A program made the position numbers and the translations under genes. From NCBI GenBank assembly GCA_905478225.1, contig CAJQHR010000005.1:62001-126000 (forward strand): a DNA stretch of 64,000 nt, given 5' to 3'. This DNA is from an uncultured Crocinitomix sp. (GTDB lineage Bacteria > Bacteroidota > Bacteroidia > Flavobacteriales_D > Crocinitomicaceae). Below the pieces are notes generated by a model. The model worked only from the letters and a program-made list of their open reading frames with translations, made no database searches and was not told the DNA's origin. This document shows positions 17,748-62,095 of the stretch, piece by piece. The stretch's first letter is position 1; each line of letters opens with the position of its first letter.

Positions 17748-18419
17748 TTAATCCAAAATTTGGATTTCGGTACGTCGATTTAATGCACGGCCATTTTCAG
17801 TTTCATTTTCCGCAATTGGTAATGCTTCGCCGTAACCTTTGGCTACAATTCTGCTGCTGCTAATTCCCTTTTTAACGAGATACTCTTTCACAGCTTTGGC
17901 GCGGCTCTCTGATAAAGATAAGTTTGTAGCATCTGACCCTTGATTGTCAGTATGGCCGCCAATTTCAATCTTTAAATCAGATTTCAATTTTAAATACTTC
18001 ACCAGTTCATCCAATTCCTCAAAGGAGGCGGATTTAATAACCGACTTATTTGTTTCAAAATGCAAATTGCTCAATGTAAATGAAGATTCTTCTTCGTATT
18101 GAATAATGATATCAAAATTATTATACACTTGATTTGGTCCCAATGTCGGAATCTGAATTGCCGAATAATCTTTAGACTTCCCAACCCTTTTTAAACGAAT
18201 GTTGTACTCACCTGCCGGTAAATCAACAATGAACTTTCCAGCACCATCTGAAACACCTGAAATGGTAACATTATTTTTGGTATCGAAAAATAGAATTTGG
18301 GCGCCTGGGATTGGAGCGTCACTGAAATCGGTTACAAGTACATTTGCACTTGCAATATCTTGAGCGCGGCTAATACCTGCAGTCAAGGCAAAAAGGAGAA
18401 TTATAATTTTCTGTTTCAT
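17748..18419 (-). CDS. OmpA-family peptidoglycan-binding protein
   Basis: The 223 residues have a signal peptide ending ISRAQ. An N-terminal carboxypeptidase-regulatory-like beta domain contains DAPIPGAQILFFDTKNNVTI and SDGAGKFIVDLPAGEYNIRL. A C-terminal OmpA domain runs from about residue 115. The murein-binding signature IGGHTDNQGSDATNLSLSESRA and GYGEALPIAENETENGRALN contain the expected Asp and Arg that grip diaminopimelate. It is periplasmic or surface-exposed, tethering envelope to cell wall. Similar two-domain proteins are common in Bacteroidota. Confidence 0.88.
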   Translation of the reverse strand: MKQKIIILLFALTAGISRAQDIASANVLVTDFSDAPIPGAQILFFDTKNNVTISGVSDGAGKFIVDLPAGEYNIRLKRVGKSKDYSAIQIPTLGPNQVYNNFDIIIQYEEESSFTLSNLHFETNKSVIKSASFEELDELVKYLKLKSDLKIEIGGHTDNQGSDATNLSLSESRAKAVKEYLVKKGISSSRIVAKGYGEALPIAENETENGRALNRRTEIQILD

Positions 18420-18473
18420 CTGAATAACGTTTTAGTTGTTATTCTTAAATGTTGGATGAATCAAAAAGTAACT

Positions 18474-34111: not shown

Positions 34112-34879
34112 ATGCAATTCTTAACCATTTTCTTATTTCAGTTTTCATCCATTTCTTATGGGCAATCCGAAATTATTGACAGATTTCAAAAGGCGGCTGA
34201 AGTTGAATTTGGATTTTATGACACCGTTTATCCTGACACATTTTTAGTGCAAAATTACAGAATGGATACAACTGAACTTTACTTTATCGTTCAACCATAT
34301 GATCCATCAAAAAGAAATCCTGAACTATTTGCATATCGCAGGTCGGATTCTAGCGCATTGAATGGGACAATCATCTACCAGCAATTCAAAAATGAATATT
34401 ATCAGAATAGCTTTTCACAATCCTATACTAGAAATGCTCGGCTATACGAAAATGGTCAACAAATTAGGCTCGTAAGTCGGGGATATTTTCGCTATTCAAC
34501 TTCATATTTTGCTGATGAACCAAGATTTGATGGTACTTTATTCGACCCGATTAAAAATGGTTTTTCTCAAAGACAATTAAGTGGTGGAGGTTATCGATAT
34601 GATTACATGAATGATACCTTAACATTAATATATTTTGACGGTACGCATAATTCAGATACCCCAAATGCCATGTTGAATACAAATTATTGGACTGTACGCC
34701 ATATTTCTGATGAAGAGAGGAAACTGCTCAATATTCCTTATAAAATTGTGCTTTCAAAGAAACCTGAAAGGGAATATTTCTACTTGCAGTCTGAAAATAG
34801 AAAAGAAACGGACATTGAAGTACTCGAAAGTTTTCTAAAGAAAAACAAAAAACGTAATGCAGCTTTAACGGAAAACTAA
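34112..34879 (+). CDS. Secreted protein, unknown function, paired with the acyltransferase
   Basis: The 255 residues have a short signal peptide (FLTIFLFQFSSISYGQ). The mature part contains AEVEFGFYDTVYPDTFLVQN, TTELYFIVQPYDPSKRNPEL and YRYDYMNDTLTLIYFDGT, mixed alpha/beta, with a basic C-terminus (LKKNKKRN). I recognise no family. The ATG lies 2 nt after the acyltransferase stop, so the two are cotranscribed. The end overlaps the convergent ABC-F gene by 4 nt. Confidence 0.65.
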   Translation: MQFLTIFLFQFSSISYGQSEIIDRFQKAAEVEFGFYDTVYPDTFLVQNYRMDTTELYFIVQPYDPSKRNPELFAYRRSDSSALNGTIIYQQFKNEYYQNSFSQSYTRNARLYENGQQIRLVSRGYFRYSTSYFADEPRFDGTLFDPIKNGFSQRQLSGGGYRYDYMNDTLTLIYFDGTHNSDTPNAMLNTNYWTVRHISDEERKLLNIPYKIVLSKKPEREYFYLQSENRKETDIEVLESFLKKNKKRNAALTEN

Positions 34880-36813
34880 GCCTGCACCTTCGTATTCAAC
34901 TCATCCAATTCCATTTCAGAATCCTCCCAAATTGTCATTGCTTTTTCGAGTTCGGCTTCTGTGTTTTTATAATCCTCAGATGCTGCGTTAAACTTATCCG
35001 TTTCTTCGTATGGCGTTTCTTCTAGGGTTTTGGTTTTTTCTTTCAGTTCCACTTCAAGGTCAGAGATTTTACGCTCGTATTTTTTGATCTTTTTCTGAAG
35101 GCGTTTAATTTGATTTTGCTCTTCCCAAGAAAGCTGGTTTTTGTCCTCGGCTTTTTTAGGTTTTTCAGCAGACTTTGAATTTTTAGTAGAAGCCATTTCT
35201 GCTTCTTCGTAATTGATCCGCTCTAAAAATTCGTTCACACCAAAATAATGCGTTTTAATCTTTCCTTCTTTAATCTCCCAAATTTTATTACTTAAACCAT
35301 CTAAGAATTCACGATCATGCGAAACCAATAATAAGGTTCCGTCATAATTCTTAAGGGCATCTTTTAAGATGTCTTTACTTTGAATATCCAAGTGATTGGT
35401 AGGCTCATCCATGATCAAGAAATTAAACTCTTGAAACAATAATTTACAAATTGCTAAACGAGTACGTTCTCCTCCACTCAGTACTTTCACTTTCTTTTCA
35501 GACTCTTCTCCACCAAATAAAAAGGCTCCTAAAATGGAACGAATATCTTTTCGCTTCTCCCCTTTTGCAATATCATCAATGGTTTTGAATACCGTTTTTT
35601 CGTCATCCAGTTTTTCAGCAGAATCCTGTGCAAAATAACCGACAGTCACATTATGACCGCGCTCAATTTGCCCGTCATATGCCATTTCCTCAGTGATACA
35701 CTTAATCAAGGTAGATTTTCCAACTCCATTTGGTCCCAACAAGGCAATTTTCTCTCCCCTTGCCAATATCACATCTAAACCATTAAAAATAGTTTTAGTA
35801 CCAAATGACTTTTTGATGCCATTCATATCCAACACCTTCTTTCCAGAAGCTTGTTGTAAGGTAAATCTTAAATGAAAAGCTTTACGCTGAATATTATCAA
35901 CTTCAATACGTTCAACTTTATCCAATTTCTTAATTAAACTCTGCGCAAAAGAGGCTTTATTTGCCTTTGCTCGGTATTTATTAATGAGTTCCTCTGTGCG
36001 TTTAATTTCGCGATCCTGATTCTTTTTAGCTGCTTGCGCGCGCTCCATTTCCTCGGCGTGTAAAACTAAATAACGTGAGTAATTGCACTTATAATCGTAA
36101 AGACGTTGATTCGCAATTTCTATCGTTCGATTGGTGACATTATCTAAAAATCTTCTATCATGAGAAATCAAGATTAATCCACCTTTAAAATTCTTTAAAT
36201 AATTTTCAAGCCATTGAATAGAGACAATATCTAAGTGATTCGTAGGCTCATCAATCAACAAAACTTCAGGGTTATTCACTAAGAGTTTTGCTAATTCAAC
36301 CCGCATTTGCCAACCACCACTAAAACTTCCAATTTGATTGTCAAATTCTTCCTGTTTAAATCCTAATCCCTTTAAAACAATCTCAATTCGCTCAGCAAAA
36401 GAATGCGCATCAAGAACAACGAGGCGGTCATTAATTTCAGTGACTTCATTTATCAAATCCAAATATAAATCTGATTCATAATCCGCACGAGTGGTCAATT
36501 CATTGTTCACAAAATCTAAACGGGCGTGCAAATTAGTGATTGCCTCATTCGATTTTTCAATATAATCTCTAACAGAAATGTCTTTCTTAATTTCAATATC
36601 CTGAGTTAGATAACCAATTGAAACACCTTTCTCAATCACAACAGTTCCATCAGTCGGCACGATCTGTTTTGAAATCAAACCCAACAAGGTTGACTTACCC
36701 ACCCCGGTTTTACCAGTAAGACCAATTTTGTCTCCACGATCTATGAATAAAGAAATGTCTTTATATAAGAAACCTTGCGGTAAATGATATGATAATCCTC
36801 CGAACCTAACCAT
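34876..36813 (-). CDS. ABC-F family ATPase
   Basis: Soluble twin-ATPase that acts on ribosomes (translation factor or antibiotic protection), not a transporter: there is no membrane domain. The 645 residues have a first cassette with Walker A GLTGKTGVGKSTLL near residue 33 and signature FSGGWQMRVELAK. Then come the P-site tRNA interaction linker (about 245-310), a second cassette with GPNGVGKSTLI and VLSGGERTRLAICK, and a C-terminal coiled coil (about 560-645) rich in Lys/Glu. Both Walker B boxes read LIDEPTNHLDI or IMDEPTNHLDI. Probably a housekeeping member; subclass not resolved. Confidence 0.92.
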   Translation of the reverse strand: MVRFGGLSYHLPQGFLYKDISLFIDRGDKIGLTGKTGVGKSTLLGLISKQIVPTDGTVVIEKGVSIGYLTQDIEIKKDISVRDYIEKSNEAITNLHARLDFVNNELTTRADYESDLYLDLINEVTEINDRLVVLDAHSFAERIEIVLKGLGFKQEEFDNQIGSFSGGWQMRVELAKLLVNNPEVLLIDEPTNHLDIVSIQWLENYLKNFKGGLILISHDRRFLDNVTNRTIEIANQRLYDYKCNYSRYLVLHAEEMERAQAAKKNQDREIKRTEELINKYRAKANKASFAQSLIKKLDKVERIEVDNIQRKAFHLRFTLQQASGKKVLDMNGIKKSFGTKTIFNGLDVILARGEKIALLGPNGVGKSTLIKCITEEMAYDGQIERGHNVTVGYFAQDSAEKLDDEKTVFKTIDDIAKGEKRKDIRSILGAFLFGGEESEKKVKVLSGGERTRLAICKLLFQEFNFLIMDEPTNHLDIQSKDILKDALKNYDGTLLLVSHDREFLDGLSNKIWEIKEGKIKTHYFGVNEFLERINYEEAEMASTKNSKSAEKPKKAEDKNQLSWEEQNQIKRLQKKIKKYERKISDLEVELKEKTKTLEETPYEETDKFNAASEDYKNTEAELEKAMTIWEDSEMELDELNTKVQA

Positions 36814-37027: not shown

Positions 37028-38749
37028 TTAACGAACAGTAAAGACTAAAGGATTAGCATTTTTTTGAACCCCAGAAGGATCCACATACTTCACAGTAATT
37101 GTTACTTTCTTACCTCCACAAGCCTGGGTTAAAATTTGTTTAGCTCTTGCATTAAGTGAACCGTCTCTATTAATTTTACCTTCTCCTGTTATTCGATCTA
37201 CCGAAACAAGACCACTAACCACTTTAAAGTTCACACCTGTCAACGGAATTCCTTCACCATAACGCAATGAAACTCTCGTTTGCGCCCTTACACTGCTACA
37301 ACCTGGATTTTGACCACCAGAAATACCTCCCAGAAAAACTTCAGGTTTAGGCAATTGTTTTACCTCAAACGTATTTGACGCAACGGTTACCACAGAACCA
37401 TCTTCCTTTTCACCACGAACCGTTATGGTCGCTGTACGAATGCCAGAACCTACTCTCACAATCCATTTGCCACCGCTACCTCTTGAAACGCTGCAACCAC
37501 TGCTCGCACTAATACTCACTTTATCCCCTGGAAAACCAGAAGCAGCCGCTTCAAGCTCATTGTCATACCCACGATAAAGCAAACGCATATTTGGTTGAGA
37601 AATAGCGCCCATTGGTGCCCCAACCGTATAATCAAATTCCCACGGCTTCCATACAGTGACTCCACGCTCTTTAATTCCAATTGCACCTTTTACTTTATGA
37701 AAACCAACCTCAGATCCCTCTAAATTAAGTCCTCCTTGTGTTTCAGTCCAACGTTCTTGCAATGTATCATCATCCATGCCCCACATTATTTTATTCACCG
37801 AGGTAGAATCATACGCCGCAATCATAACTTTTAGAGCTAAAGAATCGCCTTGGTTAATATATCCCGAACTTGCAAAAGCCATAGGCTCAATTTTATTAAT
37901 GATAAAAGGCGGAGCAGATACTTTGCCCAATAAATATTCGCAAGCAATTGACTCGGCACTTTTAACATCCACTTTTAAAGACGTGAACATGGCAGCCGCA
38001 GCAACGATTGGCGCATGGTTAAATGTAGCTGACACCCAAGGAACATCCATTTCTTCACCCGAATCATATAACGTTTCAGGTATTGTTAAGGAATGATAGA
38101 AGTGGGCAATCTTACTCGTATCCTTCGGATTTGCGTTACGCAATGCTTCCGAAAGTCCTTCTGGAGAACTGGGCGGTGTAAAACTATAAGCCGCTCCCTC
38201 TGTATAAGTTCCCATAATTACAGCCATCTTATCTCGGTAGGCGTGAATGCGATCCGTAATTTGTTTTCCACGGTCAATTGGGTCTAAAGGATTAGATCCA
38301 ATAAATAATTGCGTTGGAATATCATAATTGTCCTTGACATCAATTTCAATTAACGGCCTCAATTTCGTGACAAATCCATCTTCATCCGTCCCATTTTCCG
38401 CGATCCATGGTTTCCCCTCGGCTTCTTCAATCATCTCGCTGCATTCATTCAATAAATAACTGACGAGCGATCTGGTTTCAAACTCAAGCGAATCTGCTTT
38501 GCCGTTCCAAACACTAAATTCAGTTAAATCCCCATTTGATGCGGTGATGGTTGCTTTTTTTTGCGCGAACATGCCATAATCTTCTCCTACTTTGTTATGC
38601 ACGATCTCAGCGCTTGCATCTAGTTTATCGTTAATTGTTACGAATGCATTAACAACTTCCTTAGTTACGTTTAAAGCAAGCAAGGCGGTTAAAACGAGAT
38701 ACATCATCCCGATCATTCTTTGTCTTGGTGTTTCTTTTCCTCCGGCCAT
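37028..38749 (-). CDS. Second GldM-like protein (T9SS motor component paralogue)
   Basis: Starting at the ATG at 38749 gives MAGGKETPRQRMIGMMYLVL, almost the same start as gldM at 43561; upstream in-frame codons are rejected. The 573 residues carry one transmembrane helix (about 14-32) followed by periplasmic domains. Blocks shared with gldM are FVTINDKLD, NYDIPTQLFIG, NHAPIVAAAAMFTSLKVD, FASSGYINQGDSLALKVMIA, WEFDYTVGAPMG, GYDNELEAAASGFPGD and LGGISGGQNPGCSSVRAQ. GldM with GldL forms the proton-driven motor of T9SS and gliding. The frame is intact with conserved signatures. It lies downstream of the interrupted gldN copy. Whether it pairs with GldL is inference. Confidence 0.88.
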   Translation of the reverse strand: MAGGKETPRQRMIGMMYLVLTALLALNVTKEVVNAFVTINDKLDASAEIVHNKVGEDYGMFAQKKATITASNGDLTEFSVWNGKADSLEFETRSLVSYLLNECSEMIEEAEGKPWIAENGTDEDGFVTKLRPLIEIDVKDNYDIPTQLFIGSNPLDPIDRGKQITDRIHAYRDKMAVIMGTYTEGAAYSFTPPSSPEGLSEALRNANPKDTSKIAHFYHSLTIPETLYDSGEEMDVPWVSATFNHAPIVAAAAMFTSLKVDVKSAESIACEYLLGKVSAPPFIINKIEPMAFASSGYINQGDSLALKVMIAAYDSTSVNKIMWGMDDDTLQERWTETQGGLNLEGSEVGFHKVKGAIGIKERGVTVWKPWEFDYTVGAPMGAISQPNMRLLYRGYDNELEAAASGFPGDKVSISASSGCSVSRGSGGKWIVRVGSGIRTATITVRGEKEDGSVVTVASNTFEVKQLPKPEVFLGGISGGQNPGCSSVRAQTRVSLRYGEGIPLTGVNFKVVSGLVSVDRITGEGKINRDGSLNARAKQILTQACGGKKVTITVKYVDPSGVQKNANPLVFTVR

Positions 38750-39043
38750 AGTTTTTGATTTTAATGCCCCTTTGAGGTAGGGCGGTTTAATCAAGAAATG
38801 CCTAGAAATGAAAAAAGTAACAATTTGTTTCAAATTATATTTTATATAGTCGATTGAAAGAAGTAATTAAGTCATTCGCTGCCTGCCATAAACGCTTCCA
38901 TTAAATGAGGAATAAAAACGTCAAAAATCACAGGGATGGAATAAGCAGTTTATAGAGGAATGAAAGCATTTTGCCTACTATAACGAAACAAAGGAAACAC
39001 ATATCCTTCAATGCCTTATTCAGTATAAAATCGTTATTTTTAC

Positions 39044-39580
39044 ATAAAAAAACTTATTTCTGTTTCTCTAAAGTCGATTCTTGTCGTAATGTTCTCTATC
39101 CTTATTATTGCGTCATGTGGTATATATGAAGATGGTCCTGCTTTCTCTATTAAAACAAAAAGAACGATTGGTGAATGGGAGTTAACTTCGTTTAACGAAG
39201 GGAATGAAATATTGAGCTATAAAGGTGTTCATGCGGCCGAGATTGACGGATGTGGTACTCGAACAATTTATGACAAGATATTTAAAGAACAAAACGTTGT
39301 TTGGGACATGGGGTCTGATTACGACCTCAAAGAAAGGTACAGCCTAGTGGAATTAAAACACAATTACGCCGAATCATATATCGCTCCTTCATGTACGCCA
39401 AAATATATCACGCTTGATTCTTCAGTAAATACCGAAGTTAGAAGATGGAGTTTCAATAATAACAAAGAAGAATTAACAATTACTTAGGCCGGTGATCATG
39501 AAGAGTATCAAATTTTGAGATTAACAAATAAAGAGCTTAAATTGGAAGATGTTGATGGTAATATCCTATCCGTTTACTAA
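39044..39580 (+). pseudogene. Degenerate lipoprotein gene (lost start, in-frame TAG)
   Basis: One frame encodes KKLISVSLKSILVVMFSILI, then IASC as a lipobox, and GEWELTSFNEGNEILSYKG. After an in-frame TAG at 39485-39487 it continues AGDHEEYQILRLTNKELKLE, then DVDGNILSVY and TAA at 39578-39580. The codon where ATG AAA AAA would be expected reads ATA (39044-39046). An internal ATG at 39089 keeps the lipobox but loses the charged N-terminus. The pattern GEWEL...L.I.N....L resembles small lipocalin-like lipoproteins. Likely a decaying gene inserted between gldM and gldN copies on the opposite strand. Confidence 0.6.
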
Positions 39581-39634
39581 AAGATAAAACCATCTTTGTT
39601 TGATTTATCGATTAATAATTGCCCTTTTCTGTTT

Positions 39635-40549
39635 CTAATACTTCCAGAGATCATATTCAATGGTATTGACTAGTTCTTTGATTCTTTCTGACTCTAACAA
39701 GGCGTCCATGGCTACTTTATAACTATCAAAATCACGATTGTGTAGATTTGATTCTTTGATAATAACGCTTTGGAACAGCCGTCTTGAAAATACTTCATCC
39801 AACGTTAAGCCCCTTTCTTCATCTGCAGCATCAATAAGGGCGTATTTTTCAAATACGCTTCGACACTCTTGATAGTTCAGCCAAAACAATTATTTCGTTC
39901 CTGTTATATTTCCATTCTTATCTTTTACATAGATTAAAGGTGAAATGCCAATAATGTGTCGGTCAAGCACGCTGCGTTCTCTGTCAAAACACCAATTCAC
40001 TTGAAATCTATATTGAATAATATCAACAGTAGCATGCCTGACTGTGTCGTAGTTTTGAGACGTGTCCAATTCGTTTTCTCTTACAGTGCCGAAATAGCGA
40101 AAGATCTCCTTATGATAATCGTCTTTATTGGTTTCTGACTTCATAGGATATTTGAATGCATCACCATCCGTCAAACTTTCCAAAACGGAGTTATTAGGTG
40201 CGTATAAAGTTAAATCACCTCTCATTACATGATAGCGGATAATACTCCATAAGCTTTTAGCTGACAGGTCCAGTTTCTCATTCTCGTTATGAATCGTATC
40301 TGTTCTAGAATAAAGAGAATGATAAAAATATTGATTTGAATCAACCTTGCTCCACACGCGTTTAAATAGATTGGACGAATTTCGAAAATTTCGATAGGCG
40401 TATGTTCTATGTTTTGTCGCAATAAACTCCTTAACATAAACCCCATCTAGCATACCAGGTCTCGGAACCCTAGAAGAATCATTTGAAATTTGAGCAGCCG
40501 CACCAGACAAAATAAATTGAGTTGCAATAAAAAGACTTATTTTTTTCAT
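39635..40549 (-). pseudogene. Second GldN-like gene interrupted by an in-frame stop
   Basis: The frame starts at the ATG at 40549 with a signal peptide (MKKISLFIATQFILSGAAAQ) and follows GldN closely: PGMLDGVYVKEFIATKH, LFKRVWSKVDSNQYFYH, LWSIIRYHVMRGDLTLYAP, DRERSVLDRHIIGISPLIYV. After NGNITGTK a TAA at 39890-39892 interrupts it. The same frame then continues LFWLNYQECRSVFEKYALI to YDLWKY, matching the GldN C-terminus. The stop stands where intact gldN has Glu before LFW, so a single G-to-T change (GAA to TAA) explains it. The truncated product would lack about 85 residues. Confidence 0.85.
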
Positions 40550-40685
40550 TTGCTTAAAGTTCATTTCACAACTCAATATAGTATGTCATTGAAAATGAGA
40601 GTTAATCCATTCATAGAATCAAAAAAATGGTATTCGTTACATTGATTAGTGCAGAACTTAATGATATCTGATCACAAAAAGGCAT

Positions 40686-40718
40686 AAAAAAACCCCTGAC
40701 GTTTAAAGTCAGGGGTTT
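40686..40718 (-). terminator. Terminator of the gldKLMN operon
   Basis: Minus strand AAACCCCTGAC / GTCAGGGGTTT, 11-bp stem with a 7-nt loop, followed by a T-run. It lies 18 nt beyond the gldN stop and separates gldN from the second gldN copy. Confidence 0.9.
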
Positions 40719-40736
40719 CAATTTTATTATTACGAG

Positions 40737-41753
40737 CTAGAAGCTCCACAAGTCATGTTCGAAATTAAAGATTTTCTCTTTAATCTTTTTGGACTCGAGC
40801 AAGGCATCAACGCCTGCTTTGTAGCTATCAATATCTCGATCGTATAAGTTTGATTCTTTTATAATGTAACTCTGGAACATTCGCTTCCAAAACAAATCAT
40901 CAAATGACATGCGTTGTGAATCGTTGTTACGATTTTGAACGAAGAAGTTTTGGAAAACGTATCTACACTCAGGGAAATACAACCAAAATAATTCTTCAAA
41001 TCCAATAATATTTCCAGCATCATCTCTCTCATAAATTACTGGTGCAATACCAATGATTCTGCGATCCATTACCGATCTTTCTTTATCGAAAAACCAATCC
41101 TCTTTTAATCTGTACTGTACAATTTCATCCGAGTTATACCAAGTTGTATCATCCGGAGGATAAACAGCATCATAATTACCTGTAGCCGGATCATAGATTA
41201 CACTATCATCAGCTGGATATTGCCAACTTTTTAATGGAACGGCTGCTGGATCTCTATAGATACTTCCTATGTAAAGAAATACTGCCTGTTTAAACACATC
41301 ACTATTATAATAGTTAGGTACAGGAACCAAAGGATCTTTAACGATAATCGGATATTTAAATTGATCACCGTCTTTATAATCCTGCCATTCTGGATCATAA
41401 GGAGAATAGATAGTTAAATCACCCCACAATACGTGATATCTGATGATTGTCCAAAGACTCCAACGAGTGGTATTCTTATTCCAAGCACCCAATACGTTAA
41501 TATCATCCAATGGATAATAAAGTGGATGATTAAATTTTTCTCTCAAATCAATCACACTCCATACCCTTTTACTCCAAGTAACATCCGCCTCGCGAACATA
41601 CTCATAAGGCACGACCTTCTTAGTTGGAATATGTTCTTTCACATAAACTCCATCTAATACCCCAGGTGCTGGACTGGCTATTGGTCCGCGAATATTCTGA
41701 CCATAACTTGCCCCTACACTCAGCATCACTAAAGAAAAAATTAATCTTTTCAT
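40737..41753 (-). CDS. gldN: T9SS ring component GldN/PorN
   Basis: Periplasmic protein that joins GldK in the ring under the outer membrane and couples it to the GldLM motor. The 338 residues have a signal peptide (MKRLIFSLVMLSVGASYGQ), then PGVLDGVYVKEHIPTKKVVP, KRVWSVIDLREKFNHPLYYP, SLWTIIRYHVLWGDLTIYSP, VQYRLKEDWFFDKERSVMDR and ELFWLYFPECRYVFQNFFV. It is last in the gldKLMN unit, 83 nt after gldM. An insertion around 150-205 (rich in Pro/Asp/Tyr) is longer than in the second copy. Confidence 0.95.
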   Translation of the reverse strand: MKRLIFSLVMLSVGASYGQNIRGPIASPAPGVLDGVYVKEHIPTKKVVPYEYVREADVTWSKRVWSVIDLREKFNHPLYYPLDDINVLGAWNKNTTRWSLWTIIRYHVLWGDLTIYSPYDPEWQDYKDGDQFKYPIIVKDPLVPVPNYYNSDVFKQAVFLYIGSIYRDPAAVPLKSWQYPADDSVIYDPATGNYDAVYPPDDTTWYNSDEIVQYRLKEDWFFDKERSVMDRRIIGIAPVIYERDDAGNIIGFEELFWLYFPECRYVFQNFFVQNRNNDSQRMSFDDLFWKRMFQSYIIKESNLYDRDIDSYKAGVDALLESKKIKEKIFNFEHDLWSF

Positions 41754-41836
41754 CTCCTAATTATTAATTATACAATACAGGGGAATAAATTCTATCAAAA
41801 GGACTCATCCCCCCTATTATTTTTTAAGCTTCGTTA

Positions 41837-43561
41837 TTACCTTGTAGTAAATACGCAAGCAGTACGCTTGGAAACACCATCTGGCCCTCTATAGTTAACT
41901 AATAGAGTTACCTGTTTTCCTGACGATTGTGCTAAAATTTGTTTGGCTTTGGCTTCCAAAACACCCCCTCCGGTAATTCTTCCTTCTCCTTTAATACCGT
42001 TTACTGTAACGGTACCACTTGCGATTGAAAACTTAACACCTGTCAAAGGTACACTTTCATCATATCTACAAGAAACTCTCCCTTGAGCTCTTACACTGGA
42101 TAAACCAGGGTTTTGCCCGTTAGAGATACCTCCTAAGTACAAGTTCGGTGTTGGAAGACTTTTCACTTTGAATTTAAATGATCCCAAGTTTACAGATCCG
42201 CCATCTTCTTTACGCCCGTTGACGCTAATTGTAGCTTCTCTAGTCCCAGCACCAACTTTAGCAACATATTGAGCTCCTTTCTTACTAATAGAACACCCAC
42301 TACCCGATAAGGTTACACGATCTGCAGGAAAACCTGAAGCGGTTCCTTCTACAATATTGTCGTAACCTCTATAAAGTACACGCATTTCAGGTAATGCAAC
42401 AACTCCCATTGGTTGACCAACAGTATATTCAAATTCCCATGGTTTTGGGACTTCGATACCACGTTGTTTAACCATAATCACACCTTTTACTTTGTGTAAT
42501 CCTGGTGTATCACCTCTTAGGCTTATGCTTCCATCTGCGTTATTAGAAGGTTTCCAGTTATCAGTATTCAATGTATCCTCATCTTGACCATATTTTACTT
42601 TCGGCGTTTCCGTCGAATCGTAAGCCGCGATCATAACACGAAGGTTCAATGAATCACCTTGGTTAATATATCCAGTACTTGCAAATGCTAATGGCTCAAT
42701 TTTGTTGAAATCAAACTCTTGAACATCTACTTTAGACAATAAGAATTCCGTAGCCATTGACTCCGAGTTCTTAATATCCAATTTAAGTGCTGTCAGCATT
42801 GCAGCAGCTGCAACGATTGGCGCATGATCAAACATTACTGAAGGCCAAGGAAGTGTTTCCGTTTCCCCGTGCACAGTTTGGTCAATTTTCTCTGGAATAT
42901 CCAAAGATTTCATGAACGCTCCAATTGCTGCTGTATCATCCGGGTTACAAGTAGTTAAACTCTCCTTTAACCCACTTATGTCGGTTGGAGGAGTAAAACT
43001 ATATTTACCCTTTGGCGTATTATATGTCGCCATGATAGTCGCAACCGCATTTCTGTATTCGATTACTTTAAGACGGATATCCTTCCCTTTTTGAACAGGG
43101 TTTTGAGGATCTCCTCCAATGAACATGTTCGTTGGAATATCGTAATTATCCATTCCTAAGATTTCAGAAAGAGGTCTTAGAGAAAGAATATTCCCATTAT
43201 CATCCTTTTCTTCGATCCAAGACTCTTTTTCAGACATTTCAATCATCTCGTTACTTTCACCTAAAAGGAAACTAACAATTTCGATTGTCTTGTCACGCAC
43301 CTCGAAAGAGCGGTCTTGCCAAACTTTAACTGAATTTACATCTCCACCTTGGGCTTTAACCGTAGTGATCTTTTTGTCAAAAGAAGAATAATTACTTTGA
43401 TTGTTTTGATCGATAATTTGTGTACTGCGATCCAATTTATCATTAATCGTTACGAAAGCAGCAATAACCTGCTTCGACACGTTTAGTGCTAAAAGGGCAG
43501 TCAGTACGAGGTACATCATACCGATCATCTTTTGTCTAGGGGTTTCTTTTCCTCCTGCCAT
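41837..43561 (-). CDS. gldM: T9SS/gliding motor component GldM/PorM
   Basis: Single-pass inner-membrane protein whose dimeric periplasmic domains span to GldKN and transmit motor torque. The 574 residues start MAGGKETPRQKMIGMMYLVL, with the transmembrane helix at about 12-32. The Arg before the helix and the small-residue TM face are as in the family. Four periplasmic domains follow, with markers FDHAPIVAAAAMLTALKLD, ASTGYINQGDSLNLRVMIA, WEFEYTVGQPMGVVALPEM and LGGISNGQNPGLSSVRAQG. 53 nt after gldL. Confidence 0.96.
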   Translation of the reverse strand: MAGGKETPRQKMIGMMYLVLTALLALNVSKQVIAAFVTINDKLDRSTQIIDQNNQSNYSSFDKKITTVKAQGGDVNSVKVWQDRSFEVRDKTIEIVSFLLGESNEMIEMSEKESWIEEKDDNGNILSLRPLSEILGMDNYDIPTNMFIGGDPQNPVQKGKDIRLKVIEYRNAVATIMATYNTPKGKYSFTPPTDISGLKESLTTCNPDDTAAIGAFMKSLDIPEKIDQTVHGETETLPWPSVMFDHAPIVAAAAMLTALKLDIKNSESMATEFLLSKVDVQEFDFNKIEPLAFASTGYINQGDSLNLRVMIAAYDSTETPKVKYGQDEDTLNTDNWKPSNNADGSISLRGDTPGLHKVKGVIMVKQRGIEVPKPWEFEYTVGQPMGVVALPEMRVLYRGYDNIVEGTASGFPADRVTLSGSGCSISKKGAQYVAKVGAGTREATISVNGRKEDGGSVNLGSFKFKVKSLPTPNLYLGGISNGQNPGLSSVRAQGRVSCRYDESVPLTGVKFSIASGTVTVNGIKGEGRITGGGVLEAKAKQILAQSSGKQVTLLVNYRGPDGVSKRTACVFTTR

Positions 43562-43614: not shown

Positions 43615-44454
43615 TTAATCTCTAGATATAGTCATAGCTTTTAGCATGTTACCATAAACTTGGTTCAAATCAGTCAAGTTTTGAGATAGCATTGCCATGT
43701 TTTCTTTGTAGCGCTTAGTATCTTCTACTGAATCGCTTAAGTTAGACATCATTTCAATTACGTTTGCTTGGAACTTCTCAGTTGACTCTAGGTGAGCTGA
43801 AGATCCTTTTAATTGCAATTCGTATACATTGTTTAATGCAGCCAAGTTCGTTGATACTTTAGAGATTTGCTCTCCAAATGAAGCACCTTCTTCAGCAACA
43901 GAAGTCAATCCTAAGATCGTCTCAGAAGCTCTTTCATAAGTGTTTGATAACCCTTTAACTTGCTCTGAAGCGTTTTCTAAACTTGAAACATAACCATCAG
44001 TTGCAGCAACAGCTCCTGAAACAGCTTTAAGACCTTCAGCATTATCACTTAACGTTCTAATACCATCTCCTAATCTGTTTAATAGATCTGCGTCAATTTT
44101 TGCTTCCTCTAATAAGTTATCAAATTTTTCAGTAATCCCTGTAACGGAACCACCTCCACCACCGTGTGACAATCCTGATTCACCTTTCTCATCTAAGTAA
44201 GCATGTAAATCAAAATCTTCGTCGTGCGCTAATGCTAATTCTGGGTACACTAATTCCCATTTCGGGTCTTCGTGTAACGGCTCAAACGCCGAGAAGAAGA
44301 AAATTACGGCTTCTGTCGAAAGTCCTGCTACAAGCATGGGTCCGGCTCCTGGCCAGTGCATAATCTTAAACATTGCTCCGACGATTACTACAGCTGCACC
44401 GATACCGTACAACTTCGCCATAAATAATTTCCACTTTTTAGTTCCTGGTCTCAT
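43615..44454 (-). CDS. gldL: T9SS/gliding motor component GldL/PorL
   Basis: Inner-membrane protein forming the pentameric proton channel around the GldM dimer. The 279 residues have two transmembrane helices at about 15-32 and 38-55 (LYGIGAAVVIVGAMFKIMHW and AGPMLVAGLSTEAVIFFFSA). Glu48 in the second helix corresponds to the conserved proton-carrying Glu. Residues from about 100 on form a long cytoplasmic coiled-coil tail (NLLEEAKIDADLLNRLGDG; ENMAMLSQNLTDLNQVYGNM). Between gldK (50 nt) and gldM (53 nt). Confidence 0.95.
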   Translation of the reverse strand: MRPGTKKWKLFMAKLYGIGAAVVIVGAMFKIMHWPGAGPMLVAGLSTEAVIFFFSAFEPLHEDPKWELVYPELALAHDEDFDLHAYLDEKGESGLSHGGGGGSVTGITEKFDNLLEEAKIDADLLNRLGDGIRTLSDNAEGLKAVSGAVAATDGYVSSLENASEQVKGLSNTYERASETILGLTSVAEEGASFGEQISKVSTNLAALNNVYELQLKGSSAHLESTEKFQANVIEMMSNLSDSVEDTKRYKENMAMLSQNLTDLNQVYGNMLKAMTISRD

Positions 44455-44504: not shown

Positions 44505-46082
44505 TTATCTCAATTCGATATCTGACTTCAATTCCTCTCCGCCTTCTTTATCGAAATCATCACCACCACGTCCAATGTGCGTTTGAACACATCTAAATCC
44601 AACGTATGACTTTGAAGTATCCTGATACTCATAAGTACGAGTTCCAGTCTGTAGGTAGTATCCTATATCTTTCCATGAACCACCTCTAATAACTTTACGC
44701 TTCATTGATGGTGGATCCCAATCCATAGCATTGTATCTATATTCAGGACTTAAATCATGAGAGAACTCATAAACAGACTCATCAAAAGCAGTTTCTGTCC
44801 ACTCTGCAACATTTCCTGACATACAGTAAAGTCCATAACCATTTGGATTGTAAGAATAAGATTTAACAGTATAGAAACCGCCATCATCAAAATATCTTCC
44901 TCTCATTGGCTTGAAGTTACCTAACATACATCCACCTGAGTTTCTGATATAAGGACCTCCCCAAGGGTATGGACTGTGTTTTAAGTTTCCACGAGCGGCA
45001 TACTCCCACTCACCTTCTGTCGGTAATCTAAAATCTTGTACCCACAGTGCGCCAACGTTATGTAACCAGCTATTTAACTTTTGAGTTCTCCAAATACAAA
45101 ATGCTTTTGCCTGTACCCATGTCACACCAACAACTGGATAGTTGTCATATGCTGGATGCCAGAAATACATATTTGTCATTGGATCATTAAATGAATACGT
45201 AAAATCACGTACCCAACATAAAGTATCTGGATATACATTAATTACTTCATCAATAATGAAACGACTTCTGTCTGTGTGAGATCTTAAAGCATTGTTTTGA
45301 CCTTTTTTATTGAAGTAACCTAGATCTTCATCTTGACCTACTGGCTCATCCGTAAATGGATGTGCAGGATTTTTCAATTCACGGTGTTGTGGATCTAAAG
45401 AAGGGTATTTGTAGTCTCCATCTTTATTATATCCATCACGTTTCACATTTACACGGCCTTTACGAGCAGCCTCCTGCAAGTCAATCCAGTAATAACGGAA
45501 TTTCAACTTGCGCGTATCGATTTCTCTTCTTTTATAGAATCGTTCGTTTGGACGCAAGTACATATCAGAGATCAAAGGTACAATCTGCTGATCCTTTATT
45601 CCTCTTACTTTCCAAGACAAGGCAAACAACTCTCTATTGATATAAGGCTGAGATGGATCGAATTCTTTCCATTCTAAGTTTACCTCATCATAATAGATGT
45701 CCGGGTGATTTAACATGTCCCCGATTGCCTCTTCCTCAATCTCATCATTCCCTGTTGGATTAGTGTTCTCATATACCTTCTCCAAAAAGATTGAATCTCT
45801 TACCCAATAAACAAATTCACGATACTCGTTATTTGTTATCTCAGTTTGATCCATATACAATGAGTGTATGGACACAACGTGAGAACGAGACTGATGCAAG
45901 AATGGAACATCTTGATCACTCGCACCCATTATGTAAGAACCTGAAGGGATGTAAATCATACCTAGAGGGAGTTCTGGAAAAAATACTTTTCTTCCCTGCA
46001 CTCCAAGCAAATGCCCAGACCCTGAATTACAACTTGATATCAAGAGTGTAATTCCTACTACAAAAACTATTAATTTCTTCAT
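44505..46082 (-). CDS. gldK: T9SS lipoprotein GldK/PorK
   Basis: Outer-membrane-anchored lipoprotein that builds the T9SS ring with GldN. The 525 residues have a signal ending LLISSC with the lipidated Cys18. The body is a formylglycine-generating-enzyme/C-type-lectin fold: IYIPSGSYIMGASDQDVPFL, MDQTEITNNEYREFVYW, YPVVGVTWVQAKAFCIWR, FRLPTEGEWEYAARG, YCMSGNVAEWTE, VIRGGSWKD. It serves as structural scaffold here, not an enzyme. First gene of gldKLMN, 108 nt after a PorP/SprF gene. Confidence 0.95.
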   Translation of the reverse strand: MKKLIVFVVGITLLISSCNSGSGHLLGVQGRKVFFPELPLGMIYIPSGSYIMGASDQDVPFLHQSRSHVVSIHSLYMDQTEITNNEYREFVYWVRDSIFLEKVYENTNPTGNDEIEEEAIGDMLNHPDIYYDEVNLEWKEFDPSQPYINRELFALSWKVRGIKDQQIVPLISDMYLRPNERFYKRREIDTRKLKFRYYWIDLQEAARKGRVNVKRDGYNKDGDYKYPSLDPQHRELKNPAHPFTDEPVGQDEDLGYFNKKGQNNALRSHTDRSRFIIDEVINVYPDTLCWVRDFTYSFNDPMTNMYFWHPAYDNYPVVGVTWVQAKAFCIWRTQKLNSWLHNVGALWVQDFRLPTEGEWEYAARGNLKHSPYPWGGPYIRNSGGCMLGNFKPMRGRYFDDGGFYTVKSYSYNPNGYGLYCMSGNVAEWTETAFDESVYEFSHDLSPEYRYNAMDWDPPSMKRKVIRGGSWKDIGYYLQTGTRTYEYQDTSKSYVGFRCVQTHIGRGGDDFDKEGGEELKSDIELR

Positions 46083-46190: not shown

Positions 46191-47177
46191 CTATTGCAAA
46201 ATGAACGGATTACCATGACGCGGAACAACAGGCGGCGGCGGAAACATGCAATAGTTCGCCATCAACTCATGTGTACCTTTACCATATTCGTTCAATGGAT
46301 TGGTCATTATATCAAATGAATATCCAATTTTAAACATGTCTTTACTTACGTTTTTACTTGGAGAGAATCCGTATCCCGCCATTACTGCAATTGCATCTGA
46401 GAAACGGTATGAAGCACCAGCCCAGAAATAAGAATCGGTATTCAACCAATAGTCAGCCATGATGTTTACATCAAATACCATTGTTGACCCATCAGCTTTT
46501 AACAAAACACTTGGTTTTAATTCTAATTTGTTTCTAGTACCAATTTGCTCACCTAAATCATAGGTATAACCTCCCATTACATAATAGTGTCTTGCAACTG
46601 AAAAACTTACTTTATCTAAATTCGCGGGAGCTAAATGCGTAGCAGAAATCCCAACATAGTAACCTTCGTTACCATACCAGTACAAACCAAAGTTTTGATC
46701 AAATCCAGTTGCAGCAATTTTTGTATTAATAGATGCAATGGCAGGATCTTCGTTTGCAGCTATTTGAGGCGGAATCCAACTAGGACTGAATCCAACGTTT
46801 ATAATACCCAACCCAATACCTCCACTCAACGTACCAAAATCAGTTGGCAAGTGATAAGCAGCGCTTAATGTTAGGTTGTTATTTCTTTGAAATCCAATTG
46901 CATCATTAGAGAATGATAAACCAACTCCCAAACCACCAGGTCCAAGAATCACGTTTTGCAAGTTGCCTTGCGCGTTGAAAAGTGTTGTATTCGGTGCATC
47001 TTGCACACGATCCCATTGATTTCTGTAGATCAAAGTACCACAGTAACCTCTAAATCCAGTCGTTGCCGGATTATAAGACATGCGATCAAACATGTAATGC
47101 GTGAATTGTTTATCTTGTTGTCCGTAGACAAAACTTACTGACAAACAGCACAATACTAGAGATAAAACTTTCTTCAT
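46191..47177 (-). CDS. PorP/SprF family T9SS membrane protein (copy 1)
   Basis: Outer-membrane barrel of the family that accompanies GldKLMN and attaches secreted adhesins at the surface. The 328 residues have a signal peptide ending VSFVYGQ, then QFTHYMFDRMSYNPATTGFR, YRNQWDRVQDAPNTTLFNAQ, LGVGLSFSNDAIGFQRNNN, GLYWYGNEGYYVGISATHL and FKIGYSFDIMTNPLNEYGKG. Directly upstream of gldK, the position porP has in porPKLMN. Clearly a paralogue of the next gene upstream. Confidence 0.9.
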   Translation of the reverse strand: MKKVLSLVLCCLSVSFVYGQQDKQFTHYMFDRMSYNPATTGFRGYCGTLIYRNQWDRVQDAPNTTLFNAQGNLQNVILGPGGLGVGLSFSNDAIGFQRNNNLTLSAAYHLPTDFGTLSGGIGLGIINVGFSPSWIPPQIAANEDPAIASINTKIAATGFDQNFGLYWYGNEGYYVGISATHLAPANLDKVSFSVARHYYVMGGYTYDLGEQIGTRNKLELKPSVLLKADGSTMVFDVNIMADYWLNTDSYFWAGASYRFSDAIAVMAGYGFSPSKNVSKDMFKIGYSFDIMTNPLNEYGKGTHELMANYCMFPPPPVVPRHGNPFILQ

Positions 47178-47386
47178 AAATTAGCTTTTTCAATACTATT
47201 TAACGTCGGAACACTCCAACAAGTGGCTAAAATAATTAAAATTAATGGAAAACGAAATTATTTTATTGATCTATTTCACTTTCCTAATTCAATGATTTTT
47301 TTTTAACACCACAATCTGGCGTATTCTATAGCATGGATTGATCTAAACATTTGCTAGAACAGGGTCTTTGGTCTGATAGGATACGG

Positions 47387-47413
47387 AAAAAATCCAATAT
47401 AGGTTTCAATTGG
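47387..47413 (-). terminator. Weak terminator after PorP/SprF copy 2
   Basis: Minus strand CCAAT - 10-nt loop - ATTGG - A - T6. The stem is only 5 bp, so termination would be partial and gldKLMN could be reached by read-through. Confidence 0.4.
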
Positions 47414-47443
47414 CTTTATTTTCATTCATGATATAAGTCATAT

Positions 47444-48400
47444 TTACTCAAGACTGAAAAGGAATCCTGTTCGACCTACTGTTCTTTTTGGTGGGAAAAT
47501 GCAATAACTCACCATCAATTCATGCGTGCCTCTTCCGTACTCGTTTAATGGGTTTGTCATGACGTCGAATGAATAACCGATTTTAAAGTTGTCTTTTGCA
47601 TAACCAGCCATAAGTGCAAAGGCATCTGACAAACGATAGGTTGCCCCTGCCCAAAAGTAAGAATCTTTAGTCACCCAAAGATCCGCTTTCAAATTCACAT
47701 CAAAGACCATTGTTGATCCATCTGCTTTAATTAAGGTGCTAGGGTTTAAATAAAATGGCATACCATTTCCAAGAGAAATTGGCTTTTTGATCCCTGCCAT
47801 CACATAATAATGACGCGCCATATTAAAATTAACAGTGGTTAATTTGGCTGGAGCAACATGTGTCATAGATATTCCGGCATAATAATCGCCATTACCATAC
47901 CAATACAATCCAACGTTTGAATCAAATCCAGTTTGCCCTGTTTTTGTAGTCACAATACTTGGATCCATACTCGCTGGTATGTCAGGTGTGATCCAATCTG
48001 GATCTAAACCTACATTTATCAAACCAATCCCCAACCCCGCACTCAGCGTACCGTAATTGGTTGGCATATGATAAGCCCCACTTAAAACAACATTATTGCT
48101 TTTTTGAAAACCAATCACATCATTTGATAAGGACATCCCTATTCCTATTGAACCTGGACCAACGTTTAAATTTTGGAGGTTCCCCTGAACGTTGAGCAAT
48201 GTTGTATTTGGAGCATCTTGCACTTTATCCCACTGGTTGCGATAAAGCAATGTGCCGCAATATCCCTTAAAACCTGTTACAGCAGGATTAAATGACATTC
48301 GATCAAACATGTATTGGGTGAATTGCCGATCTTGCTGGGCAAATGTTGCTGTAAAAAGAGTAGTTACTAGTAAAAGTGCACTGAGTAATAATTTAATCAT
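47444..48400 (-). CDS. PorP/SprF family T9SS membrane protein (copy 2)
   Basis: The 318 residues have a signal peptide ending TLFTATFAQ and the same block order as copy 1: QFTQYMFDRMSFNPAVTGFK, YRNQWDKVQDAPNTTLLNVQ, IGIGMSLSNDVIGFQKSNN, GLYWYGNGDYYAGISMTHV, NFKIGYSFDVMTNPLNEYG. Differences cluster in loops between strands and at the C-terminus. The tandem arrangement indicates local duplication. First gene of the likely T9SS transcript; four ACTCAA repeats lie 88-164 nt upstream. Confidence 0.9.
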   Translation of the reverse strand: MIKLLLSALLLVTTLFTATFAQQDRQFTQYMFDRMSFNPAVTGFKGYCGTLLYRNQWDKVQDAPNTTLLNVQGNLQNLNVGPGSIGIGMSLSNDVIGFQKSNNVVLSGAYHMPTNYGTLSAGLGIGLINVGLDPDWITPDIPASMDPSIVTTKTGQTGFDSNVGLYWYGNGDYYAGISMTHVAPAKLTTVNFNMARHYYVMAGIKKPISLGNGMPFYLNPSTLIKADGSTMVFDVNLKADLWVTKDSYFWAGATYRLSDAFALMAGYAKDNFKIGYSFDVMTNPLNEYGRGTHELMVSYCIFPPKRTVGRTGFLFSLE

Positions 48401-61498: not shown

Positions 61499-62095
61499 CT
61501 AGCGAATAATTTTACCTATTGTTCGAAAAATCAATTTAATATCTAACCAGAAAGAGCGATCAGCAATGTATTTTAAATTAAGTTTTAATTTGGCGGGCAT
61601 TACCTCCTCTATATATGCTTTGTCGGGATCATCAGCGGCACCCAAGATCTTTTGCTCATCTAAGTATTCGATAGAAGCATAATCAGTTAATCCTGGTAAA
61701 ACCGTCAATACATTCAATTGCTCTGCAGAATACATCTTTACGTATTTAGGCACCTCAGGGCGAGGGCCTACAACGCTCATATCTCCTTTTATGATATTGA
61801 TGAGTTGTGGTATTTCGTCTATTTTAAACTTGCGAATAAATTCGCCTACTTTAGTGATTCGTGAATCATTACCAATAGTTATTTGACCCGCTTTGTCGGA
61901 ATAAGATCGCATAGACCTGAATTTATACAATCCAAATTCTTTTTGATTTTTTCCAACTCGAATTTGACGATAAAAAATACCTCCACGACTATCGAGCGCA
62001 ATCCAAATAGAGATAATCATTAAGATGGGCGAAAAAATAACCAAAGCGATTAATGAGGAAAGAATATCAAATACGCGTTTGGCTATAAAACTCAT
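61499..62095 (-). CDS. Sugar transferase (undecaprenyl-phosphate glycosyl-1-phosphate transferase class)
   Basis: Starting at the ATG at 62095, right after wecB, gives 198 residues: a short membrane-bound form with one N-terminal hydrophobic hairpin (RVFDILSSLIALVIFSPILM). The conserved blocks are IFYRQIRVGKNQKEFGLYKF, RSMRS, KVGEFIRKFKIDEIPQLINI and GDMSVVGPRPEVPKYV, with the catalytic Asp-Glu pair. It starts repeat-unit synthesis by loading a sugar phosphate on undecaprenyl phosphate. Part of the polysaccharide cluster at the right edge. Confidence 0.92.
   Translation of the reverse strand: MSFIAKRVFDILSSLIALVIFSPILMIISIWIALDSRGGIFYRQIRVGKNQKEFGLYKFRSMRSYSDKAGQITIGNDSRITKVGEFIRKFKIDEIPQLINIIKGDMSVVGPRPEVPKYVKMYSAEQLNVLTVLPGLTDYASIEYLDEQKILGAADDPDKAYIEEVMPAKLKLNLKYIADRSFWLDIKLIFRTIGKIIR

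Follow-up and report, generated by a model that had tools for sequence, protein, structure and literature searches.

A conserved second GldM beside the gldKLMN genes of Crocinitomix, a candidate alternative rotor for a single type IX secretion motor base

The closest described relatives of the protein considered here are GldM and PorM, the four-domain shaft proteins of the type IX secretion system (T9SS) of Flavobacterium johnsoniae and Porphyromonas gingivalis. Two-hybrid assays indicated that domain D4 of PorM suffices for PorN binding and that D2 and D3 self-associate, and the authors name a hinge between D2 and D3 (PMC5790014). In F. johnsoniae, the GldL substitution E59A uncouples secretion and gliding, and microscopy suggests, according to the same authors, the presence of both static and moving GldLM complexes (PMC8986121); this organism also has GldO, a partially redundant GldN paralogue whose gene adjoins gldN (PMC9127263). 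In the open-licence literature on gldM/porM paralogues, on duplications and on the T9SS of Crocinitomicaceae and Fluviicola, as far as its text was available, we found no description of a second gldM or porM. Here we describe such a gene, M', in a 64,000-nucleotide stretch of DNA (the window; positions 62,001 to 126,000 of contig CAJQHR010000005.1, assembly GCA_905478225.1) from an uncultured Crocinitomix sp., whose genome is G000 in the numbering (G001 and so on) that we use for the genomes compared.

M' resembles GldM and PorM in family score, transmembrane (TM) helix, residues R9 and Y17, four-domain shaft and predicted fold; it differs from them in being a second copy that lies beside an intact gldM, past a terminator-like hairpin, and in having its own upstream element and a mosaic of two histories. 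On balance, we think that M' probably functions as a second GldM rotor in the machine that GldM serves, under control of its own. The features of the locus, all but one of them on the minus strand, are as follows.

37028 to 38749, minus strand: M', second full-length GldM, 573 aa, ATG start at 38749.
38750 to 38821, minus strand: leader of M' with a hairpin-like block, conserved across four close species in alignment.
38797 to 38821, minus strand: promoter-like element GTTACTTTTT-N12-ATT, beginning about 72 nt 5' of the M' ATG.
39635 to 40549, minus strand: N', second GldN (TIGR03523, Pfam GldN), with one in-frame TAA.
40737 to 41753, minus strand: gldN, 338 aa, TIGR03523 188.7 bits.
41837 to 43561, minus strand: gldM (M), 574 aa, TIGR03517 227.9 bits summed over the frame.
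43615 to 44454, minus strand: gldL, 279 aa, TIGR03513 234.4 bits.
44505 to 46082, minus strand: gldK, 525 aa, TIGR03525 561.7 bits.
40686 to 40715, minus strand: terminator-like hairpin and T run between gldN and N', seen in the sequence.
39089 to 39487, plus strand: small lipoprotein-like open reading frame (ORF), 132 aa, between N' and M'.
34876 to 36813, minus strand: gene bordering the cluster, placed by its synteny cluster, for what we take to be an ABC-F-like ATPase.

An earlier note, made from the letters of this DNA, had proposed a full-length second gldM-like gene here, and profile searches bear this out: against TIGR03517, whose cut-off is 180, M' totals 207.9 bits across its frame, and over its length it shares 54% identity with GldM. 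Pfam GldM_1st, GldM_2nd and GldM_3rd match above their cut-offs; GldM_4th reaches 20.9 bits, under its cut-off of 24.6, and for GldM itself is not among the matches at E 0.001. D4 of M' was assigned by full-length alignment to GldM, which gives the four periplasmic domains D1–D4. An AlphaFold2 model of M' (pLDDT 85.5, pTM 0.53) has a helix at residues 8–70, and its top PDB match is GldM (6ey4), with a whole-length TM-score of only 0.30; whole-length scores against 6ey4 and 7cmg span 0.30–0.39. The N-terminal signature and helix that M' had been said to keep are present: R9, which we take to be important for the motor, and Y17 are identical in 53 of 53 GldM and M' sequences, within an N-terminal TM helix. 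The role of Y17 in GldM is described in PMC9127263. As a GldM, M' would be expected to form a 5:2 complex with GldL. Of 45 N-terminal sites, 34 share one residue between the two types, each time in no fewer than 12 of the 13 M and 12 of the 13 M', with zero type-specific sites; judged by its residues, the GldL-facing N-terminus of M' is almost unchanged. Separately from M', a 264-aa ORF on another contig of G000 (C6, L192:4060–4854) resembles GldM residues 400–573 (34%, 70 bits; no Pfam match), and C-terminal-only GldM-like proteins of roughly 200–270 aa occur in several relatives and in G132.

M' is conserved. Among 79 genomes, those with two long GldM frames, both full-length within the genus, number 9/9 genus genomes, 9/39 elsewhere in the family and 8/31 elsewhere in the order, where G069, interrupted by contig ends, is a possible further case; as most of these genomes are drafts, absence and contig order are uncertain. 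M' is also found at 83–84% on three named Crocinitomix metagenome-assembled contigs. In a phylum-wide draw of 118 genomes, GldM was matched in 32, above the cut-off in 30, and a second full-length GldM was listed only in the window's own genome. The order M-N-N'-M' followed by the same ABC-F-like gene is found in the window, G001, G003, G005, G015 and G018, with extra genes interposed in G030 and G044; it reaches the contig end in G008 and lacks the ABC-F-like neighbour in G049. Four genomes have M-N-M' and the ABC-F-like gene (G007, G027, G033, G072), G012 has M-N and, 8.4 kb on, M'-N' and that gene, and in G004 M' and the ABC-F-like gene lie 18 kb away from M-N; in G056, G060 and G066, M-N stands immediately before the ABC-F-like gene. 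The order N-N'-M' that had been described for the window is correct; it is no oddity, as M-N-N'-M' recurs among relatives.

Selection acts on M'. By the NG86 method, dS being near saturation in the wider pairs, dN/dS values for M' are 0.098/1.212 (G000–G001), 0.103/1.542 (G000–G004) and 0.022/0.707 (G004–G006), compared with 0.077/0.65, 0.062/0.665 and 0.010/0.157 for M in the same pairs. M' is therefore under purifying selection and constrained like M, rather than unconstrained in relatives. For G004–G006, the dS of 0.707 in M' against 0.157 in M is an observation of its own, pointing to weaker codon constraint or between-species exchange.

The block beginning GTTACTTTTT upstream of M' is kept in four close species, in which the DNA further upstream is not conserved. 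With the start of every gene other than M and M' set at the earliest ATG in its frame, the motif GTTACT lies within 130 nt upstream of 19/21 M' as against 6/32 M, 1/31 N and 0/13 N', and of 0/30 K, 2/28 PorP-like, 1/31 L and 0/21 ABC-F-like genes; its distance to the start ranges from 45 to 121 nt. The M genes that have it include those of G012, G016, G027 and G033, and gldM may thus be the source of the element at M'. The element, which differs from the P. gingivalis SigP consensus (PMC4800418), suggests that M' would be separately regulated.

Two further ideas about the region upstream of M' were dropped. A structured RNA leader (38750–38860) gave a folding z-score of −1.59, which is not significant, and genome-wide counts of the element, considered as a sign of a regulon, showed no excess over a reversed-pattern control (7 versus 5 in G000; 12/8 in G001, 8/10 in G003, 15/18 in G004 and 8/4 in G007); 37 of the 50 element sites were readable with flanks, 12 of these being flagged within an ORF. 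The one thing that points to a wider role is the conserved position of the element upstream of orthologues, which we take as a lead only. An OmpA/CarboxypepD_reg gene in the window (17748–18419) has the same GTTACTTTTT-N12-ATT element at 18448–18472 (minus strand), as it does in 4/5 genomes, including 3/4 relatives searched. The element also precedes a DUF7935-like gene in two genomes and a sigma-70 gene in two, with neighbours readable at 14/27 sites in G001 and G004; the extracytoplasmic function (ECF) Pfam score of the sigma-70 gene is 20.5 in G000, below the cut-off of 21.1, and 26.8 in G007, above it.

In subfamily A, to which 100/100 support is given by the GldK and GldL tree that served as our organismal frame, TM-D1-D2 and D3-D4 of GldM have, on the evidence of their trees, different histories, with the switch near the D2/D3 hinge. 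A whole-protein tree of 53 rows mixes M and M', as does not the motor-proximal half: with domain borders set by Pfam and 31 rows (G006, near-identical to G004, and the other subfamilies left out), the D1-D2 tree places all 13 subfamily-A M' in one clade (support 88/90). The same domains reject M and M' of the genus plus G016 as one group (p 6.8e-9), the G030 M/M' pair (p 1.4e-4) and a grouping together of G027, G033 and G012 (p 0.03). In D3-D4 the grouping follows lineage, M' joining the M of its own lineage, and a single M' clade is rejected (p 3.6e-4).

The position of the switch was examined by scoring competing domain trees only on sites of domains not used to build them. On held-out D2 the D1 tree was favoured over the D4 tree (+50.3 and +49.9 log-likelihood units, intervals above zero), and on held-out D3 the D4 tree was favoured (−42.5, interval below zero); the cumulative log-likelihood peaks at residue 387, by the D2/D3 border. 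D1 against D3 trees gave −117.9 and −88.8 on held-out D4 and +38.9 and +55.7 on held-out D2. Five genomes that belong to subfamily B by K and L (G014, G034, G042, G019 and G023) have a GldM that is A-like in D1-D2 and B-like in D3-D4, perhaps another hinge exchange; this is only suggestive, because the O+B grouping was not rejected in D1-D2 (p 0.16).

Subfamily B was analysed with 12 rows and with G013, G014 and G019 as outside rows. Here G044 shows the same two-half split as subfamily A: in D1-D2 its M' pairs with the M' of G015 (96/94), pairing with its own M being rejected (p 2.7e-5), and in D3-D4 it pairs with its own M (100/99), pairing with the G015 M' being rejected (p 0.024). Several points weigh against our reading. 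In D1-D2 of subfamily B, a common clade for the M' genes of G018, G044 and G015 is rejected (p 3.4e-4) and the M and M' of G017 pair, because of which we argue for one old M' in subfamily A only; subfamily B may reflect independent duplication or whole-gene conversion. The support of the subfamily-A M' clade in D1-D2 (88/90) is moderate, the groups for the approximately unbiased tests were named after the first trees had been seen, which makes the p values optimistic, and the third positions of M and M' are saturated (identity 0.37–0.48). Among the held-out scores, a second D3 value of −39.8 has an interval reaching +17.2, held-out D1 is predicted poorly, if at all, by the D2 tree (+56.8 and +40.7, both with an interval that extends below zero; +24.3 and −13.6), and the TM sites give no uniform sign (+25.2, +8.1, −8.1 and −25.3). 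In the genus itself, M' and M separate once more in D3-D4, though weakly (85/49), implying that the exchange predates the genus radiation and that there was no recent conversion there; the match in D3-D4 could also have arisen by convergence under a common partner. Just 2 of 574 sites are near-fixed yet different between 13 M and 13 M'; specialisation of M' through fixed residues was considered and is not claimed, nor is any new chemistry.

The subfamily B result lowered our confidence and raised that in independent, lineage-specific duplications in place of one old M' with conversion, an explanation that we regard as unlikely but worth serious consideration. Whole-protein trees are on its side, pairing the two GldM copies of G018, G017, G072 and G049 and the two GldN copies of G030, G018, G044, G015, G013 and G049. 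It fits poorly with the finding, in several lineages, of M-N-N'-M' in this order and at the same place next to the ABC-F-like gene, and with the disagreement of the GldM halves in subfamily A and in G044.

Under the reading that we prefer, a single old duplication of gldM with a promoter-like element upstream would have given rise to M' in subfamily A. Its motor-proximal half, TM-D1-D2, would have remained a separate lineage. In different lineages, the resident gldM would have replaced the D3-D4 of M' or traded sequence with it, the change-over lying near the D2/D3 hinge. The TM helix of M' would fit the one GldL stator and the D3-D4 end would dock onto the single GldKN ring; in the resulting population of motors, M' homodimers or M/M' heterodimers would be exchangeable shafts for a shared base and ring. 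Because D4 of PorM suffices for PorN, the matched half would be the ring-docking half and the separate half the motor side; the docking end of M' looks as if it has been kept matched to M by apparent gene conversion. The simplest reading of these sequences is that both shafts share one base and one ring, and two types of shaft may be turned by a single motor base. The earlier note had raised an alternative rotor pairing with the single GldL, an idea that gains support from the presence of M' in all nine genus genomes, its purifying selection, its N-terminus and its upstream element.

We take Fluviicola taffensis to be placed near the window's group. It is said to encode at least 230 potential T9SS effectors (PMC10202324), which together with the two near-fixed differences would suit a dosage explanation, in which M' merely adds GldM and the copies are interchangeable; we consider this rather improbable, given the separate D1-D2 lineage of M' in subfamily A, its own upstream element and a partner, GldL, that is not duplicated.

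N' had been noted as a second gldN-like frame beyond a terminator of gldN. The terminator-like hairpin and T run are there, and N' does reach 103.8 bits against TIGR03523 (cut-off 85.9), only when read through an in-frame TAA (39892–39890) that had gone unmentioned and that divides the frame into 219 and 84 codons, both pieces matching Pfam GldN (57.5 and 71.5 bits). For G000–G001, N' has dN 0.498 and dS 2.048 against dN 0.075 and dS 0.85 for N (NG86), its dN being more than six times that of N. The GldN search listed no N' for G004, G006, G007, G016, G027 and G033, possibly a gap in G006 and G016, where M and M' are on separate contigs; a tblastn search for N' remnants in the available stretches of G004 and G006 gave four hits, all of them gldN itself. 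After the stop, N' is 49% identical to its own N and 42% to the N' of G001, against 39% and 37% before it, and is level with the N' of G008 and G003 (43/43 and 43/42). Since intact controls also gain after the same point (N of G000–G001, 96/85; N' of G003–G008, 69/59, and of G001–G008, 46/39), the stop is probably recent; slight decay after it, or an assembly error at it, is possible.

Like GldO, N' is paralogous to GldN and its frame comes next to gldN, just downstream; it differs from GldO in its in-frame stop, its fast evolution and the second gldM that follows it. It looks like a GldO-like second ring subunit that would be on its way to loss, and it is N' alone that resembles a relic. Half-by-half trees (32 of 44 rows, without the outgroups and a pair of long N' branches) place N beside the N' of the same genome twice, once per half, for G044 and G018 and in one half for G030, G015 and G013, and the genus N' form a group of their own; in such trees, duplication and conversion are indistinguishable as histories of N'. 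A third, dispersed GldN-like protein is encoded on another contig of G000 (C40, L193:4874–5818; Pfam GldN 82.2 bits, 37% to GldN), and weak dispersed GldN matches occur in further family genomes.

That two core-cluster genes are duplicated, one of them broken, might suggest what is left of a second T9SS, either ancient or gained by horizontal transfer, much as had also been proposed; we consider this very improbable. As had been stated, gldL and gldK are not duplicated: GldL has a single match in the genome (TIGR03513), and one of 11 GldK match places exceeds the TIGR03525 cut-off, the ten others lying below it, so that by profile search the genome holds no second GldL, no second true GldK and hence no second complete T9SS. 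M', moreover, is under purifying selection and branches inside the family's own GldM radiation, not outside GldM.

Of the neighbouring features, the small lipoprotein-like ORF lies between N' and M' on the opposite strand, as described before; it has no Pfam match, and its best E value in 40 stretches, two of them from its own genome, is 0.85. Hairpins unlike the window's in sequence were seen by eye 3' of gldN in G001, G003, G005 and G008. The synteny cluster of the ABC-F-like gene (c5) spans 20 stretches including the window, and the gene borders the cluster in relatives too. Two tandem genes that we presume to be PorP/SprF-like precede gldK in the window (46191–48400, minus strand) and in G001 and G005; G004 has a tandem pair too, as far as its stretch extends, and the other stretches reaching there have one.

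Some flagellar motors combine a single rotor with two or more types of stator. The idea of swappable motor parts on one machine is common to both systems, whereas here it is the shaft that is duplicated, on a base, GldL, of which there is one. The mosaic suggests, from evolution alone, that GldM is made of two modules joined at the D2/D3 hinge. Tentatively, and as a combination that we think unlikely to hold in full, GldM and M' would compete or heterodimerise on one GldL base, with recurrent conversion that ends at D2/D3 and keeps both ring-docking ends suited to the one ring, and with an M' promoter of its own; an ECF-like sigma factor with the same element in two genomes would then possibly switch on M'. 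If so, secretion and gliding could use different shafts on the same machine. The finding bears on the question of how a single GldLM motor can work for secretion as well as for gliding, which bacteria that naturally have two rotors for a single base and ring would allow to be tested.

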